DNA from: Cytophagaceae bacterium
GTDB taxonomy: Bacteria; Bacteroidota; Bacteroidia; Cytophagales; JAIYAX01
Length of the DNA stretch: 64,000 nt
Assembly: GCA_027488815.1 (NCBI GenBank)
Contig: JAIYAX010000012.1
Span: 124,001 to 188,000, forward strand
Direction of reading: 5' to 3'
Under the pieces are notes generated by a model. It worked only from the letters and a program-made list of their open reading frames with translations, was not told where the DNA came from and made no database searches. Positions 6,363 to 38,091 of this stretch are shown one piece after another. The position numbers were made by a program, and so were the translations under genes. Position 1 is the first letter of the stretch; each line of letters begins with the position of its first letter.

Positions 6363-7093
6363 AAACCATGCGATTAAGATTTCTTTCGGTTATTTTAATT
6401 ACACTCGCTGCAAGCACCTCTTGCACTCAAGAAGAACTTGATCAGTTCCTCAGCCCGGGCCTCAGCCAATCTGAAGTCATCAGCGGCTTGAGGGAAGCAC
6501 TTAAAGTAGGGACCGATACTTCAGTTGGTAGGTTAAATGCTCTGAATGGATATTTTACCGATCAGGCAGTGAAGATTCTTTTACCTCCTGAGGCTCAGGT
6601 TATTCAGCAGTATGTAAGCATCGTTCCCGGTGGTCAGTTACTAATCGATGAAGTAGTGCTGAAGGTCAACAGAGCCGCAGAACAGGCTGCCTCGCAGGCT
6701 AAACCGATTTTTGTTAATGCCATCACTACCATTACCATTCAGGATGGATTTACTATTTTAAGAGGTGGCGATACTGCTGCTACAGAGTATCTCAGAGGCC
6801 GGACTATTGATTCTTTACAAGCCAGTTTTACCCCACCAATTACACAGGCACTTGGTACTCCGATTGTAGGAAATATTTCAGCGGAGAGCGCATATGCCAA
6901 CCTTGTAAACACCTTCAATCAGATCGCCCCATTTATCCAACAGCCCCAAATCACCCAAAATTCATTGGCGGCCCACACCACCCGCCGGGCGCTTGATGGG
7001 CTCTTTGTCAAAGTGGCTGATGAAGAGAAGAAAATCAGAAGAGATCCACTTCACAGGGTGACAGAAATACTCAAGAGAGTGTTCGGTGCCTAG
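6359..7093 (+). CDS. DUF4197 domain lipoprotein
   Basis: A 244-residue protein with a lipoprotein signal (LAASTSC) and the DUF4197 family pattern: GLSQSEVISGLREALKVGTD near the start, then PPEAQ, a central helical repeat, and ITIQDGFTILRGGDTAATEYLR. The domain is widespread in proteobacteria and Bacteroidota and has no assigned function. It overlaps the DinB gene by four bases and is probably the last gene of the run that starts at 2634. Confidence 0.85.
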   Translation: MKTMRLRFLSVILITLAASTSCTQEELDQFLSPGLSQSEVISGLREALKVGTDTSVGRLNALNGYFTDQAVKILLPPEAQVIQQYVSIVPGGQLLIDEVVLKVNRAAEQAASQAKPIFVNAITTITIQDGFTILRGGDTAATEYLRGRTIDSLQASFTPPITQALGTPIVGNISAESAYANLVNTFNQIAPFIQQPQITQNSLAAHTTRRALDGLFVKVADEEKKIRRDPLHRVTEILKRVFGA

Positions 7094-7104
7094 CGTTCTG
7101 CCAT

Positions 7105-7112
7105 TACATTTG
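7105..7112 (+). promoter_or_regulatory. Candidate Bacteroidota -7 box (TACATTTG)
   Basis: An exact match to the Bacteroidota -7 consensus TAnnTTTG, 24 bases before the start codon of the cytochrome gene at 7136. The -33 element is poor (no clear TTTG at the expected distance), so this is only a candidate. Confidence 0.45.
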
Positions 7113-32512: not shown

Positions 32513-32653
32513 TTAGTTTTTTGGAGGCGAACGTCTGTGTGGGTCAACAGGAACTGTCTTTGGTACTGGTTTTGGTGCATCAGGATTTTTTCTTGGTGTT
32601 GGTGATGGTGTGGACCTTTTGTGTGGTTTTACTGGAACTGTCTTTTTTGCCAT
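32513..32653 (-). CDS. Proline-rich basic mini-protein, copy B (46 residues)
   Basis: An ATG-to-TAA frame of 46 residues. It is very rich in Pro and Lys, with few acidic residues and no hydrophobic core. A block KTVPVKPHKRSTP near the N-terminus recurs near the C-terminus as KTVPVDPHRRSPP, 28 residues later. It is the partner of the copy at 34055 (39 of 46 residues identical), and of the 19 codons that differ, 12 are purely synonymous, which argues for a translated gene. Copy B starts five bases after the stop of a methylase C-terminal remnant. No endonuclease gene follows it. The function is unknown. Confidence 0.72.
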   Translation of the reverse strand: MAKKTVPVKPHKRSTPSPTPRKNPDAPKPVPKTVPVDPHRRSPPKN

Positions 32654-32658
32654 TTTAT

Positions 32659-32760
32659 TTAGTTTTTAGTATTCTCAATATTTCTTATTTCTTCATCTGT
32701 CAACTCGTAAAGCTGATAAACCAATTGGTCTATTTGGTTTTCTCTCTCGGTTTTAAGGAG
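32659..32760 (-). pseudogene. C-terminal remnant of a second Eco57I-type methylase
   Basis: The - strand frame here reads QIDQLVYQLYELTDEEI and ends ENTKN, closely matching the last residues of the complete methylase at 34201 (QIDQLVYQLYKLTEEEI, ENSKN). Similarity ends abruptly about 30 codons from the stop, and the sequence beyond is unrelated. It shows that a second methylase once preceded mini-gene copy B and was mostly deleted. Confidence 0.75.
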
Positions 32761-33122
32761 AGACAGACACAGGCTGCCGCCAAGTTTTGGCTTGCGGATC
32801 GGCTGGAGTGACTTTGTCCCGCAATGAGAGGGATGTGTGGCTGTGAAGCGTTGGCTTGGGTGCTTCGTTCCTTAAGTGACCCGAAACGTTCCTTATTTGC
32901 ATATTCTAACTGATATTCAATGACATGCGCTTATATTGTAGCGTTCCTTAAAAGGATTTTATAGTTTCTTAAAGGCATACTTGGCATTCCTATCTCTTTG
33001 TTTTTCACTTAATCGCTCTAAGATTTTTTCATTATCCATAAATTGGTTCAAGTACAGCCTTACATTTTTCTCATGAATTCACCCACTGGCGCAAGCATCC
33101 GCTTGTGTCAAGACAGTTTTTT
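32761..33122. other. Degraded accessory sequence downstream of the Mrr gene
   Basis: About 360 bases without an intact gene. A short - strand frame near 32974-33076 (encoding MDNEKILERLSEKQRDRNAK and ending AFKKL) looks like a gene fragment that I cannot place. Short inverted repeats occur at about 32764-32784 (ccgccaag/cttgcgg) and at 33090-33108. Confidence 0.4.
33089..33109. repeat. REP-like small palindrome
   Basis: Near-perfect hairpin cgcaagc/gcttgtg with an atcc-centred loop, directly beyond the Mrr gene. There is no T-run, so it is more like a dispersed palindromic element than a terminator. Confidence 0.4.
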
Positions 33123-34052
33123 TTAGTCATTACTACCTAAAAAATAGATTGAGTGCAATGGAAGCATATTCTTGTCATCGTCAGATAGCTTGTTGTAAAA
33201 CTCTTGCCAAAGGTCAATGAAATTATCAATGTCTATTAGCTTGATATGTCTGTGGCTTTCTCTTGCTGAACGTTCAGCTTCAGAAGTAAAAGTGCCTGAT
33301 GTTACAAATAAACCGATGTCGCCATCTTTGTTGAGAAGCCCTGTCAAACTACGAATGTCGTCAACCGGAACCGATGCATCAGGTCGGTGTTTTATTTGAA
33401 CCTTCAGCCGTGGAGATGTTGCACCTAAAGGGTCGTTATATGCCACAATATCTAAACCACCGTCTTTGCCTTTTGGTGAAATAAAGGGTGTATGATATTT
33501 CATTGCTCTCAATAATGCGGCAACCATATCTTGAAACTCATAAGCATTTTTGCTTCTGATATAGTCTTTTATTCCTGCAATGGCTTGTTCTTCTAATAAG
33601 TCAAGGTTTGCTTTTTGGGTTTGAGTTTTATTTTCCTCAAGTTCAGTTGGCTCGTCATCTGTTTCCTTTCCTTTCTTAGGTTTCCTTTCCTTATTGTCGG
33701 CAACCCAAGTCCTGTAAAGTTGTGAGGCGGTCTCAAGAAGTTTTGCTGGCCCGAGTTTTATTGCTTTTTCACCTTCTTCTGTTAAATACCAAATGCCTTT
33801 ATTTTTTCGTAGAAAACCTGCTTTAATTCCGTCAATGGTGTAGAAATGTAAAATTGATTCCCACCTAACATAGCCTGTCTTCTCATAAATTTGTTTTTCC
33901 CAATCAGTTAGTTCAACTGTCTCACGTATTTTGTCAATGACTTTTTTTCCGGGTAGCTGCCCACCTGCTTCTTTTAATATTTTAAAAGTCGCATACATTG
34001 TCTTGGCTGCTGACTGTTTTGAAGGAGCTAATTTTTCTAATTCTTTATCCAT
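33123..34052 (-). CDS. Mrr-type restriction endonuclease
   Basis: A 309-residue protein. Residues about 10-100 form the winged-helix Mrr N-terminal domain (QLPGKKVIDKIRETVELTDWEKQIYEKTGYVRWE). A charged linker (KERKPKKGKETDDEPTELEE) leads to the PD-(D/E)xK nuclease domain, with GLDIVAYND supplying the Asp and VQIKHRP the QxK motif, as in Mrr enzymes that cut methylated DNA. Its ATG lies two bases after the stop of mini-gene copy A, so it is co-transcribed with it and the methylase. It may cut modified foreign DNA, or act as the nuclease of a combined system. Confidence 0.9.
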   Translation of the reverse strand: MDKELEKLAPSKQSAAKTMYATFKILKEAGGQLPGKKVIDKIRETVELTDWEKQIYEKTGYVRWESILHFYTIDGIKAGFLRKNKGIWYLTEEGEKAIKLGPAKLLETASQLYRTWVADNKERKPKKGKETDDEPTELEENKTQTQKANLDLLEEQAIAGIKDYIRSKNAYEFQDMVAALLRAMKYHTPFISPKGKDGGLDIVAYNDPLGATSPRLKVQIKHRPDASVPVDDIRSLTGLLNKDGDIGLFVTSGTFTSEAERSARESHRHIKLIDIDNFIDLWQEFYNKLSDDDKNMLPLHSIYFLGSND

Positions 34053-34054
34053 TG

Positions 34055-34195
34055 TTACTTCTTTGGTGGTGTTCGTTTATGTGGCTCAACAGGAACTGTC
34101 TTTGGTCCTGGTTTTGGTGCATCAGGATTTTTTCTTGGAGTCGGTGATGGTGTAGACCTCTTGTGAGGTTTAACGGGGACTGTCTTTGTTGGCAT
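34055..34195 (-). CDS. Proline-rich basic mini-protein, copy A (46 residues)
   Basis: An ATG-to-TAA frame of 46 residues set between the methylase (5-base gap) and Mrr (2-base gap). It contains 14 prolines, 9 lysines and 3 arginines against only 2 acidic residues. The block KTVPVKPHKRSTP is repeated as KTVPVEPHKRTPP 28 residues later, with a middle TPRKNPDAPKPGP. It has no signal peptide or known domain. Spacing and conservation in two copies point to a functional small protein of the restriction locus, perhaps one that binds DNA or a partner enzyme; that role is inference. It is below usual gene-calling length limits. Confidence 0.78.
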   Translation of the reverse strand: MPTKTVPVKPHKRSTPSPTPRKNPDAPKPGPKTVPVEPHKRTPPKK

Positions 34196-34200
34196 TTAAT

Positions 34201-37200
34201 CTAGTTTTTAGAGTTCTCGATTATTTTTATTTCTTCTTCCGTCAACTTGTAAAGCTGATAAACCAATTGGTCGATTTGGCTTTCTAAATCAGTGGTGTCG
34301 GCTGACGGGTTTTGTTTTTTCATTGAAATAATAATGTTTGTTAATTTCTCAACAGATTCTTTTTGTTCATCTGCTGGCTGAACAATTGGTAGAAGCTCAA
34401 TTTTATATTTCAACCATCTATTTGTTCCCATTCCAGAGCTTGTTGAGATTTCATTAAAATACCATTTAGCAACTTTTGAGTTTAAAATAGACAAGAGATA
34501 TTTCAAATTATTTCCAGTGATAAAGAAGATCGTATTGTTTGCATACATTCCACTATCATCATAAGCGAATTTTTGACTGTCAGATAGTTCTCCCCAAACA
34601 ATCTTTGATTTTTCAAATTCATCATAATAAACACAAGGTCTTAATTCCCACCAATAATCACCTTGGTCATCACGGGCATAAAGTCCTTTGCCTTTACCCT
34701 TTATAGAATCGCCAATTTCTTTTAAATGGCTGTAAATTGATGGATACGAATTACTAAAAAACTTCTCAGGGTTAATGCCACTTATATTTTGTTCATTAGT
34801 CACCCCTTGTTTAATGAGTAAAACCCAAATATCTTTCCAAACATAATTAAACTTTGAAACATCTTTTCCTCTCAGTGCAGGTTTAATAAAGTCAGCATTT
34901 GAACTATCATCAGAAACTAACTGATTTCTCTTTTCAGTAGTCATAAAAAAGGCTTCGTTAAAACCTGTTTTAAGACCATAGTTTATTTGATAGTCTAAAC
35001 CGCAAAGCCTTACCCCTAAACTTTCGATTTTAAATTTCAGTTCTGCTTCCTCCTGATTTCCTATTGTCCATCCATTTTCATTAAGATTATAAATGATTAT
35101 GTTGTTATCAATAAAGTATGATTCTAAGGATTTACTTAAATTAAAATCTGATTTTAATGAGATTGCTTTCAGCTGTGAATTCCATTCAGATTTCTCAACT
35201 TCAATGATAATTGATTCAACGGTAGCATCCTCAAATACTTGAATGTCTTCAATGTTGATAAGTTGCATTGGGTTGGCATTTTCAACTAAAAACTTTCTTA
35301 AAAATTGCCCATATTGAGTTCTTAGCCAAGAGTTAGAAGATATGTAGGTCAGAATACCTTTAGGCTTTAATAACTGGACTCCTTTCTCATAAAACAAACA
35401 ATATATATCGGCAGACTTTGAATAGGTTAGATAGCCTGCATTTTCAAAATAAGAACTTTGTTCTTTAATCTTTGACATTGAAAAATAAGGCGGATTTCCA
35501 ATCACCACATCAAATCCCACAAAATCGCCAGCATCATTTAACACTTCTGGAAACTCAAAGCGCCATTCAAAAGCGTTTTCAAAAATTTTGTTGGCTTTTA
35601 TTTCTTCTATTTTAGCATTTAATTCTTCAATTTCATTCTCCAACTTTTGCTGTTCAGCCTTTCTTTTCTTTTCTAATTTTTTATCGGTTTCGTTGTAAGG
35701 AGCTTCTGGTTCAAAAAGGTATGTACCAGTAAATCTATGATATAACTCACTAGCTAACTTGTCTAGTCGTTTTTTGATAGGATCGTTTCTTCTAATCTCG
35801 AAGGTAAAATTTTGTTTAATCTGGAGAATAAGTCTCTCCATTTCTTTTTTCTCTTCTTTGTTTCTAGCCTCCCGATAGGATTGAACAGCCAGTTTATAAG
35901 TTTCAATTGTCCACTTATTTTTCTGTAAAGCTTGTTTCAGGTCAGCATCAATGGCAAAACGGCTCACTAAAGAGTTTCCGCATTTTATATTGATGTCAAT
36001 GTTTGGAAGTGTTTCTAACACACCCCCTTGCCCCCTCTCAAGAGGGGGAGTTTTGTAATAGGCATTTTTCAAAAGCTCAATCCACAAGCGCAATCGGCAT
36101 ATTTTTACCGAGTTTGAATTGATGTCCACACCAAAAAGACAGTTTTCAATAATGGTTTGCTTTTCGTGAAAAAGCGTTTCTTGTATTCGCTGGCTTTCTC
36201 TGTTGCTTGGATTGTATTCAAAAAGTTCTCCTTCTTCGTCTGTTACAATCAGCTCATCATTTACCACTTCCACCTGATATTCTTTCAATCGTTTGCCTTC
36301 TCGGTCTTGCAGAATTTTCAAGTCGTTTTTAACGGCTATCATTTCATTGAGTGCCGAAACCAAGAAGTGCCCTGAACCAACGGCAGGGTCGCAAATTTTG
36401 ATGCTGTTTACAATTTTGTTGGCTTCCTTACGGTCTTCAATTTTGTCGTAAAGTTCTTCAAGTGTTGTGCAGCTCCATTTTTTAGTTTCGTTGAATTTCT
36501 GCACAACCGCTTTGCGAATGGTTTCACGGCACATATACATGGTGATAAAACCCGGAGTGAAAAACGAACCGTCTTTATAACCGTTTATTTTCTCGAAAAT
36601 CAAACCGAGAACCGAGGCGTTAATCAGCGTTTTGTTGTCTTCCTGAATGTCTTCCCCGCCTTCTGCTCCAAAATCGTAAGCTTCTAAAAACTCAAACAAG
36701 TATTGAAGTGTGGAAAGGTTACCTGATCTTTTTTTGCCTTGCTGGTCTTTCAGTACTGTTTGCGAAAAAATCGGAATGGTTTTATCGTCTTTCAGGTTGC
36801 TAATAAACAAGGCGACCTGCTCTAATTCTGTTGGCTCGAAAAGCGAAGAATTAAGGTATGGGACTTTCTCAAAAGCTTTTTTTACATCTTCGTTTCGCTC
36901 ATCATACTTTCGTGCCAATACCTGAAAAAACAAGCTGTTCAGGTCGTCATAGCTTTGGATTTTATCAAGGTTGAGAAATTTATATTCTGACACACCTCCA
37001 GCCCCTCTCGAGAGGGAAGTTTTGTGATAGGTGAGGAGTTGGGCTTCCAGCAACTTCAAAAACAAAATCCTGTTGATCCAAGTGATGGAAAGTTCGAGAG
37101 CAACATTAAAAAGTCTTTCTTGTTGGGCGTTACCAAACTGGTTTGGCTTTTCCAACCGGCTAATCTTATCAAGGCTATCAAGCTGAATGATGGCATCTTC

Positions 37201-38091
37201 AAGTATCGTTCCTGTGTGTCGTTCACCTGCTTTGTGTCGTTCAATCAGTTTTTTGCTTCCCTCTTTGGTTTCTGTAAGTCCGATGATGTGCAGCAACTCG
37301 CTGTAAAAGCGTTTGTCAAGACTGTTGCTGTCGTTTGTGAACGGAAGTTTTAAAAGATGCTCAGGTGATAAAAGTTTGAATAATGCAATCAGAGAATTAT
37401 CGTCTGCTTTCTCGGCATTGCGTAATGGTTTTTGAAAGTCCTGAATGTTGAAGTATGTAAATTCAATGTCAGAAGTGATGCTGTCAATAAACGGCTCGGC
37501 AATTTGTTTGTAGAAAAAATCGGTTTTGGTGTCTGCCAAACGTCCTGCTTCAAAGTCGTTGAATTGCTTTACGAGATTTTTGTTTTGTGCAAAAAGTCTG
37601 TCAAACAGGGTAGCGTCAAAAATGAACCATTCGTTGATGTTGGTCGCAACCAAATGCTTTACTTCAAGATTTTTGTGCGTTATTCTTTCTCGTAAATAAT
37701 ACAAAACCAATTCCTGAAAGGCTTTCACATTCAGTTTCGAAATCATTTGCTTTTGGCTATCGCCTTCTGCCAATGATTTTATCATTTCGGATTTGTTAGT
37801 CGGTTTTTTGGCTTCGATAATTACCCCAACTGTTGAGTTTGCGTGGGGCCCGTTGTGAATAACTAGGTCGTTTCGCCCTTTGGTATTTATAAAATGGTTT
37901 TGCTTGTAATAAGTATCTTTAAGAAAGTCAGAAACTAAGTTTTTATGGAACTCTTCGCTTTCTGTGTCATTTGTCCTGTCGAGTAAAGTAATCAGATGGG
38001 TCTTGAAACCTTCAATTTCTATCCTGTTCGGTTTTACTTTTAAAAAAGCTTTGTTTAGTGCCTTTCTTGGTTTCAATACTCTGCAAATCAT
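34201..38091 (-). CDS. Type IIG-like restriction-modification enzyme (Eco57I-type methylase with nuclease domain)
   Basis: A 1296-residue protein. The N-terminus (about 20-150) contains a PD-(D/E)xK-like nuclease: NDLVIHNG followed by VIIEAKKP. The adenine-methylase core has motif I in DPAVGSGHFLVSAL (about residue 560) and motif IV in GNPPYFSM (about 860). The C-terminal third resembles the TaqI-type target-recognition domain. One polypeptide therefore both modifies and cuts DNA. Two in-frame palindromic insertions are present (see repeats), encoding TPPLERGQGGVL and TSLSRGAGGVS. It heads a tight - strand operon with the mini-gene and Mrr. The target sequence is unknown. Confidence 0.9.
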   Translation of the reverse strand: MICRVLKPRKALNKAFLKVKPNRIEIEGFKTHLITLLDRTNDTESEEFHKNLVSDFLKDTYYKQNHFINTKGRNDLVIHNGPHANSTVGVIIEAKKPTNKSEMIKSLAEGDSQKQMISKLNVKAFQELVLYYLRERITHKNLEVKHLVATNINEWFIFDATLFDRLFAQNKNLVKQFNDFEAGRLADTKTDFFYKQIAEPFIDSITSDIEFTYFNIQDFQKPLRNAEKADDNSLIALFKLLSPEHLLKLPFTNDSNSLDKRFYSELLHIIGLTETKEGSKKLIERHKAGERHTGTILEDAIIQLDSLDKISRLEKPNQFGNAQQERLFNVALELSITWINRILFLKLLEAQLLTYHKTSLSRGAGGVSEYKFLNLDKIQSYDDLNSLFFQVLARKYDERNEDVKKAFEKVPYLNSSLFEPTELEQVALFISNLKDDKTIPIFSQTVLKDQQGKKRSGNLSTLQYLFEFLEAYDFGAEGGEDIQEDNKTLINASVLGLIFEKINGYKDGSFFTPGFITMYMCRETIRKAVVQKFNETKKWSCTTLEELYDKIEDRKEANKIVNSIKICDPAVGSGHFLVSALNEMIAVKNDLKILQDREGKRLKEYQVEVVNDELIVTDEEGELFEYNPSNRESQRIQETLFHEKQTIIENCLFGVDINSNSVKICRLRLWIELLKNAYYKTPPLERGQGGVLETLPNIDINIKCGNSLVSRFAIDADLKQALQKNKWTIETYKLAVQSYREARNKEEKKEMERLILQIKQNFTFEIRRNDPIKKRLDKLASELYHRFTGTYLFEPEAPYNETDKKLEKKRKAEQQKLENEIEELNAKIEEIKANKIFENAFEWRFEFPEVLNDAGDFVGFDVVIGNPPYFSMSKIKEQSSYFENAGYLTYSKSADIYCLFYEKGVQLLKPKGILTYISSNSWLRTQYGQFLRKFLVENANPMQLINIEDIQVFEDATVESIIIEVEKSEWNSQLKAISLKSDFNLSKSLESYFIDNNIIIYNLNENGWTIGNQEEAELKFKIESLGVRLCGLDYQINYGLKTGFNEAFFMTTEKRNQLVSDDSSNADFIKPALRGKDVSKFNYVWKDIWVLLIKQGVTNEQNISGINPEKFFSNSYPSIYSHLKEIGDSIKGKGKGLYARDDQGDYWWELRPCVYYDEFEKSKIVWGELSDSQKFAYDDSGMYANNTIFFITGNNLKYLLSILNSKVAKWYFNEISTSSGMGTNRWLKYKIELLPIVQPADEQKESVEKLTNIIISMKKQNPSADTTDLESQIDQLVYQLYKLTEEEIKIIENSKN
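36019..36062. repeat. In-frame palindromic element, copy 1
   Basis: A GC-rich palindrome (ccccctct/agaggggg, 36031-36048) with flanks acaccccctt and gttttgtaatagg lies inside the methylase reading frame and encodes YKTPPLERGQGGVL. It matches copy 2 near 37010 over about 40 bases in the same orientation. Confidence 0.8.
36990..37031. repeat. In-frame palindromic element, copy 2
   Basis: Same element as at 36019, with palindrome ccctctcgagaggg and flanks cacacctcca and gttttgtgatagg. It encodes YHKTSLSRGAGGVS in the methylase. The copies differ at several bases, so insertion was not very recent. Confidence 0.8.

Follow-up and report, generated by a model that had tools for sequence, protein, structure and literature searches.

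The described systems that come closest to the genes reported here are the apidaecin-type antimicrobial peptides, the type IIG restriction-modification (R-M) enzymes with a DUF7149 domain, the R-M controller (C) proteins, and tmRNA together with other translated structured RNAs. Apidaecin carries the sequence PRPPHPRL, and its type II pharmacophore is situated at the free C-terminus (PMC11549390). Here we analysed two mini-genes in a stretch of 64,000 nucleotides from a Cytophagaceae bacterium (hereafter the window), one of them directly behind a DUF7149-type enzyme. They very probably belong to a previously unnamed, horizontally moving family of extended, basic, proline-rich proteins of ~35–50 residues, a sub-branch of which resides in defence operons.

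Copy A (34055..34195, minus strand; MPTKTVPVKPHKRSTPSPTPRKNPDAPKPGPKTVPVEPHKRTPPKK) and copy B (32513..32653, minus strand; MAKKTVPVKPHKRSTPSPTPRKNPDAPKPVPKTVPVDPHRRSPPKN) each encode 46 amino acids. Both translations were verified and, just as a preliminary description of this DNA had stated, they are identical at 39 of 46 residues (85%), the 19 differing codons comprising 12 synonymous and 7 replacement changes. The same description placed the block KTVPV-PHKR twice in each copy, 28 residues apart. The blocks begin at residues 4 and 32, so this spacing is right, as is the sequence for copy A, but the second block of copy B reads KTVPVDPHRR. PHKR/PHRR is followed by five residues in both copies. 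The protein consists of 28–30% Pro and 26% Lys/Arg, and the mini-proteins are strongly basic (pI ~11.3–11.6, net charge ~+10). The predicted model contains no secondary structure, helices included, and the GRP core of AT-hook peptides is found in neither copy.

Upstream of copy A lies a type IIG R-M enzyme of 1296 aa (34201..38091, minus strand) with the Pfam architecture DUF7149-DUF7814-Eco57I-TaqI_C and a PADLOC REase_MTase_IIG match at E 1e-288, and directly 3′ of it an Mrr-type nuclease of 309 aa (33123..34052, minus strand; Mrr_N + Mrr_cat in Pfam, PDC-S02 in PADLOC). Five bases separate the methylase stop from copy A and two bases separate copy A from the Mrr gene, exactly as first reported; the three genes form an IIG–mini–Mrr operon. 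Five bases again separate copy B from a remnant before it (32659..32743, minus strand): a second DUF7149-type IIG methylase of which the C-terminal tail is left (...QIDQLVYQLYELTDEEIRNIENTKN). A hairpin-like repeat element (CCAACGCTTCACAGCCACACA...; 32755..32854, minus strand) is present in a single copy in the genome. A recurrent hairpin (CAGCCACACACATTGCCAAG...CTTGTCAAAGAGTGTGTCTG, with compensatory differences) is seen there and at the 3′ end of other defence modules with or without a mini-gene (L014, L015, L016, L018, L019, L023, L026, L027, L140, L142, L143).

The DNA similarity between the copies extends over 231 bp at 85.7%, covering the last methylase codons, the 5-base gap and the mini-gene, and stops at the mini-gene stop codon. 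In the 3.37-Mb genome only these two matches were found (E 2.5e-22 and 2.0e-18). Their synonymous divergence is pS = 0.38; the nearest relatives of copy A are in a Bacteroidales MAG and Cecembia (98% identity), and those of copy B are L020/L021 (91%) rather than copy A. A simple recent tandem duplication of A into B is ruled out by this divergence and the tree placement. Since copy B is closest to L020/L021 and is accompanied by a methylase tail, the two together look like the remainder of a separate, second mini-bearing operon.

Among ~395 genomes of the same class (Bacteroidia), four further convincing homologues were found; matches at E ≤ 0.01 occurred in 8 of the 395, but three were close to the threshold and were dismissed as spurious. 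Homologues in other families scored from E 6e-17 to 3e-9. An alignment-based scan of the GTDB species collection yielded 64 loci; L007–L009 and L117 were treated as spurious (low scores, 35–41% identity, stops in some), and L129 was left out of the counts. For 34 two-block homologues in the same register, the mean pS was 0.68, which is near saturation, and the mean pN was 0.11 (pN/pS 0.17), with pN exceeding pS in no pair. Two peptide patterns had been selected for in the scan, and the linker, which lies outside both, was therefore tested separately; its pN/pS was 0.22, and that of the blocks 0.11–0.12. The earlier suggestion of selection at the protein level, which a dN/dS near 1 would contradict, is thus strengthened, and both frames are, by these substitution patterns, genuine genes.

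The family spans at least six bacterial phyla as well as phages; its members come from Bacteroidota, Pseudomonadota, Nitrospinota, Planctomycetota, Spirochaetota, a cyanobacterial lineage and viral contigs. Its nearly invariant core, KPGPKTVPVKPH[KR]RSxP, occurs once or twice per protein. Members with two blocks (38–51 aa) are known here from Bacteroidota, Gammaproteobacteria, Planctomycetota, Spirochaetota and a single viral contig of 194 kb. Those with one block, which have cysteines near both the N- and the C-terminus, are from Alphaproteobacteria, Nitrospinota, a vampirovibrio and viral contigs. No family match for the mini-protein was obtained in Pfam, NCBIfam, PHROGs, Rfam or PDB sequences, and a full-text literature search with the core peptide found no family. 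PDB profile matches to bL35m and histone H3.3C were rejected as chance (E > 2), and tblastn against plasmids and phages gave nothing useful, though the BLAST low-complexity filter may mask such a query. We count the family as new because it is absent from every family and system searched, a judgement by exclusion with no function demonstrated.

The genes next to two-block minis are highly varied. About 20 of the 49 two-block rows on the tree carry a defence label, assigned from Pfam/PADLOC for representatives and via sequence clusters for other loci, and nearly all of these rows have a co-directional gene just upstream (median gap ~12–15 nt). The mini-gene follows the DUF7149-type IIG class of the window in L014, L016, L017, L019–L021 and L025, type-ISP IIG enzymes in L018, L023, L028 and L029, a ResIII-Eco57I IIG enzyme in L015, and an Eco57I-TaqI_C enzyme in a Planctomycetales MAG (L049). 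It also occurs with Shedu SduA (L016, L017, L025), TIR proteins, PDC-S66 included (L010, L019, L021, L027), a patatin plus metallo-beta-lactamase (MBL) locus (L027), DISARM-like helicase/methylase genes (L038 and the related L013) and an M78 peptidase module (L026); L019, whose operon is that of L021, carries a Clostridia label that may stem from misbinning. A DUF7149 enzyme adjoins the mini-gene in 8 loci (the window counted once) vs. ~0.01 expected within 5 kb, our estimate from the DUF7149 density (36 in 395 genomes). Homologues beside Eco57I-type methylases thus do exist in other genomes, which upholds the proposed link to restriction genes; as worded, this link was too narrow, since the neighbours also include TIR, SduA, patatin/MBL, DISARM-like and non-defence genes, and related forms are carried by phages. 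Of 51 two-block loci, 30 have an upstream open frame within 30 nt of the mini start. At these loci the same holds for 43% of ordinary gene starts and 10% of random positions; the minis are thus placed operonically, although this is not unique to them.

Outside defence operons, 18 flavobacterial and related rows place the mini-gene in a cluster of small genes beside a response regulator; non-defence neighbours in Flavobacteriia are YidD, DUF1508 and DUF4236 genes. Alphaproteobacteria have lone copies, and related forms also occur without any restriction gene. A read-through fusion with the upstream gene was rejected, as the frame relation changes with the gap. Several further arrangements were seen at these loci. 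In a Spirochaetales MAG (L050:8755–10224), the mini-gene is on the opposite strand inside a type I restriction locus (HsdM, likely HsdS). Litoribacter populi (L032, L033) has two copies in one genome; the same two small genes come behind each of them, and an OLD-like TOPRIM ATPase or DUF5131 + GMT-wHTH genes lie nearby. A small HEVH-containing protein (YYVNxNAQ..G.HEVH...C) with no Pfam family is encoded beside the mini-gene in Flavobacteriales and Billgrantia (L030, L031, L055, L057). A second, different proline-rich mini-gene (MSxxKPxxPKP...VPGPRxPPPPPxK; L013:5490–5625, L038:9003–9132) lies in both loci directly 3′ of a gene for a membrane-protein-like product of ~170 aa; neither has a Pfam family.

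The defence label requires 5 changes on the tree vs. 15.6 in shuffles, for a mini tree that is weakly resolved over 46 columns. Near-identical minis occur across different bacterial families, and the closest relatives of copy A come from different orders. This clustering together with the cross-order relatives indicates that the mini-gene probably spread horizontally, one sub-branch becoming tied to defence operons. L020 and L021 have the mini-gene and downstream genes in common and differ upstream, while L015 and L020 have the upstream gene and mini-gene in common and diverge once the mini stop is passed. This stop is the precise end of the shared DNA both in L015/L020 and between copies A and B, and the same mini is found behind different upstream modules. 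Judged from these junctions, the two-block form of Bacteroidota is usually a single detachable gene located a few bases after the stop of another gene. On the enzyme side, DUF7149 IIG genes are followed by exchangeable genes, among them SduA, a membrane protein of 288 aa and another of 224 aa that may or may not come with TIR (L143, L148, L139 and L016, L020, L021), which suggests a modular IIG-plus-effector system.

The sister branch of one-block minis is encoded within a structured RNA. This RNA of ~200–240 nt (L065–L069 and L074–L076, ~6890–7110; L112:6899–7132; L137:3757–3998) has a covarying closing stem, a hairpin before a near-full anti-16S Shine-Dalgarno sequence, and further hairpins inside and after the ORF, one of them within the PGPKTVPV codons. 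The GGAGGTGA-type or AAAGGAGGTGAT-like sequences 5′ of the start codon make this Shine-Dalgarno element nearly full-length. The enclosing stem, in which pairing is kept while the sequence changes, was found in 13 of 16 one-block loci (≤2 of 100 shuffles) vs. 3 or fewer of ~50 two-block loci (2 by the shuffle criterion); it was looked for around copies A and B and is absent there. Single-sequence folds gave z-scores from −4.1 to −8.4, values helped by choosing the RNA ends at the stem. RNAalifold on six Rhodobacterales RNAs showed a clear structure with compensatory changes in 10 of 49 consensus pairs; on 11 divergent RNAs the consensus collapsed because MAFFT misaligned the variable stems. Rfam covariance models and ARAGORN tmRNA searches gave no match for this RNA. 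In viral contigs, the mini-gene precedes a tRNA-Pro gene by 53 nt (the L109 group) and a different tRNA by 45 nt (L135), or is located within a 16-tRNA region (L108); no tRNA was found near it in L136 and L137. The structured-RNA form of Rhodobacterales is a second novelty, one that can be tested independently.

Binding to RNA or the ribosome is our best guess for the function, based on the charge, the extended shape, the cross-phylum conservation and the link of the sister branch to translation. The mini-protein would bind through its extended Pro/Lys/Arg blocks and, co-made with defence genes as an accessory, would modulate translation or protect RNA while the cell is infected, whichever defence enzyme it accompanies. 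We favour this because the same block also appears in phage tRNA regions and in a structured alphaproteobacterial mRNA whose ribosome-binding site is almost perfect. The link to translation comes from the sister branch, outside the branch of the window, and for the latter the binding step is tentative. The explanation as a whole, a mobile basic proline-rich family acting as an RNA/ribosome-binding defence accessory, we consider plausible at somewhat below an even chance.

Almost as likely as the RNA/ribosome reading is that the mini-gene is cargo, either passive or self-interested. It would then be a small mobile gene that serves the cell in some general way, happens to settle behind expressed genes in horizontally exchanged islands and does nothing for the defence genes. 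Its optional presence, the flavobacterial placements beside YidD, DUF1508 and DUF4236, the lone alphaproteobacterial copies and the module junctions at the mini stop are all consistent with such cargo; the clustered sub-branch of defence-linked minis and the estimated excess of adjoining DUF7149 enzymes argue against it. A role devoted to the type IIG enzyme or to Mrr, whether as partner or inhibitor, both considered in the preliminary description, or as specificity factor, would fit the five- and two-base gaps in the window and the three IIG architectures found upstream elsewhere, the Planctomycetales MAG included. However, in 35 of 36 Bacteroidia genomes with the DUF7149 IIG class no mini-gene adjoins the enzyme, the window's genome being the only one where both are adjacent, and the 20 DUF7149 enzymes inspected had none beside them. 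Moreover, one finds the same mini behind TIR, SduA, patatin/MBL and M78 genes, and L143 has an IIG-SduA operon without it whose SduA is 84% identical to that of the mini-bearing L016. Given the varied neighbours, the many methylases without a mini and the phage forms, a role dedicated to the methylase or Mrr is therefore unlikely; with the mini-gene missing from nearly all same-class IIG operons and the flavobacterial branch outside defence, a role in defence is optional at best.

A net charge of ~+10 without a fold would suit DNA binding equally well, so a DNA-compacting or DNA-binding accessory, a nucleoid-type basic peptide that helps or restrains nucleases, was also weighed; lacking an AT-hook core and similarity to known nucleoid proteins, and with the phage and RNA contexts pointing to translation, it appears improbable. 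Slightly more doubtful is a cis-acting regulatory ORF (arrest peptide or RNA element) in place of a trans-acting protein. The one-block forms do sit in a conserved RNA structure with a hairpin in the PGPKTVPV codons, but in Bacteroidota the mini is in many cases the final cistron and has no nearby downstream gene to control, there is no enclosing stem and synonymous sites are free; a leader or attenuator of the downstream gene was rejected for Bacteroidota because of this frequent terminal position. Least probable of all is a self-encoded analogue of the ribosome-blocking proline-rich antimicrobial peptides, that is, a translation-inhibiting effector: the Pro and Lys/Arg content and a PHxR element in common with apidaecin (PMC11549390) point that way, but in the mini-protein this element is internal and repeated rather than at a free C-terminus as in the type II pharmacophore, and a toxin co-expressed with its operon without an immunity gene would be hard to keep.

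Returning to the RNA/ribosome-binding reading, its broadest form, a micro-protein family shared between phyla that acts on the translation machinery and serves as a common accessory of bacterial immunity across unrelated antiphage operons, is a little more doubtful than the binding step itself. What makes it worth considering is a short conserved protein absent from family databases, yet encoded next to antiphage genes of at least six kinds and also by phages. Should it function there, it would be a common small component of defence operons, and operon reconstructions may have omitted it.

In comparison with the described systems, tmRNA and other translated structured RNAs resemble the sister branch, whose ORF lies inside a conserved RNA stem and near tRNAs in some phages. 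Besides matching no Rfam family and giving no ARAGORN tmRNA call, the sister branch differs in that tRNA-like ends were not seen and that it has a real Shine-Dalgarno sequence, a start codon and an ORF of ~34–40 codons. The C proteins of R-M systems are likewise encoded by small genes linked to restriction genes, but have a helix-turn-helix, which the mini-protein, with no Pfam/NCBIfam family and no helix in its model, lacks; moreover, the mini-gene is behind and not before the enzyme and also accompanies non-R-M defence genes. Apidaecin-type peptides are similarly short, extended, Pro- and Lys/Arg-rich and contain a PHxR element. In the mini-protein, PHxR is not C-terminal, there is no -RL/-RI end and the blocks are two and internal, so that it fails the defining C-terminal feature of these peptides; the minis are bacterial and phage genes, and no homology is claimed. 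The type IIG R-M systems with DUF7149 are part of the window's own operon, and several homologous minis follow such an enzyme; most of these systems are without a mini, which is no subunit of them, and we regard it instead as a family of its own.
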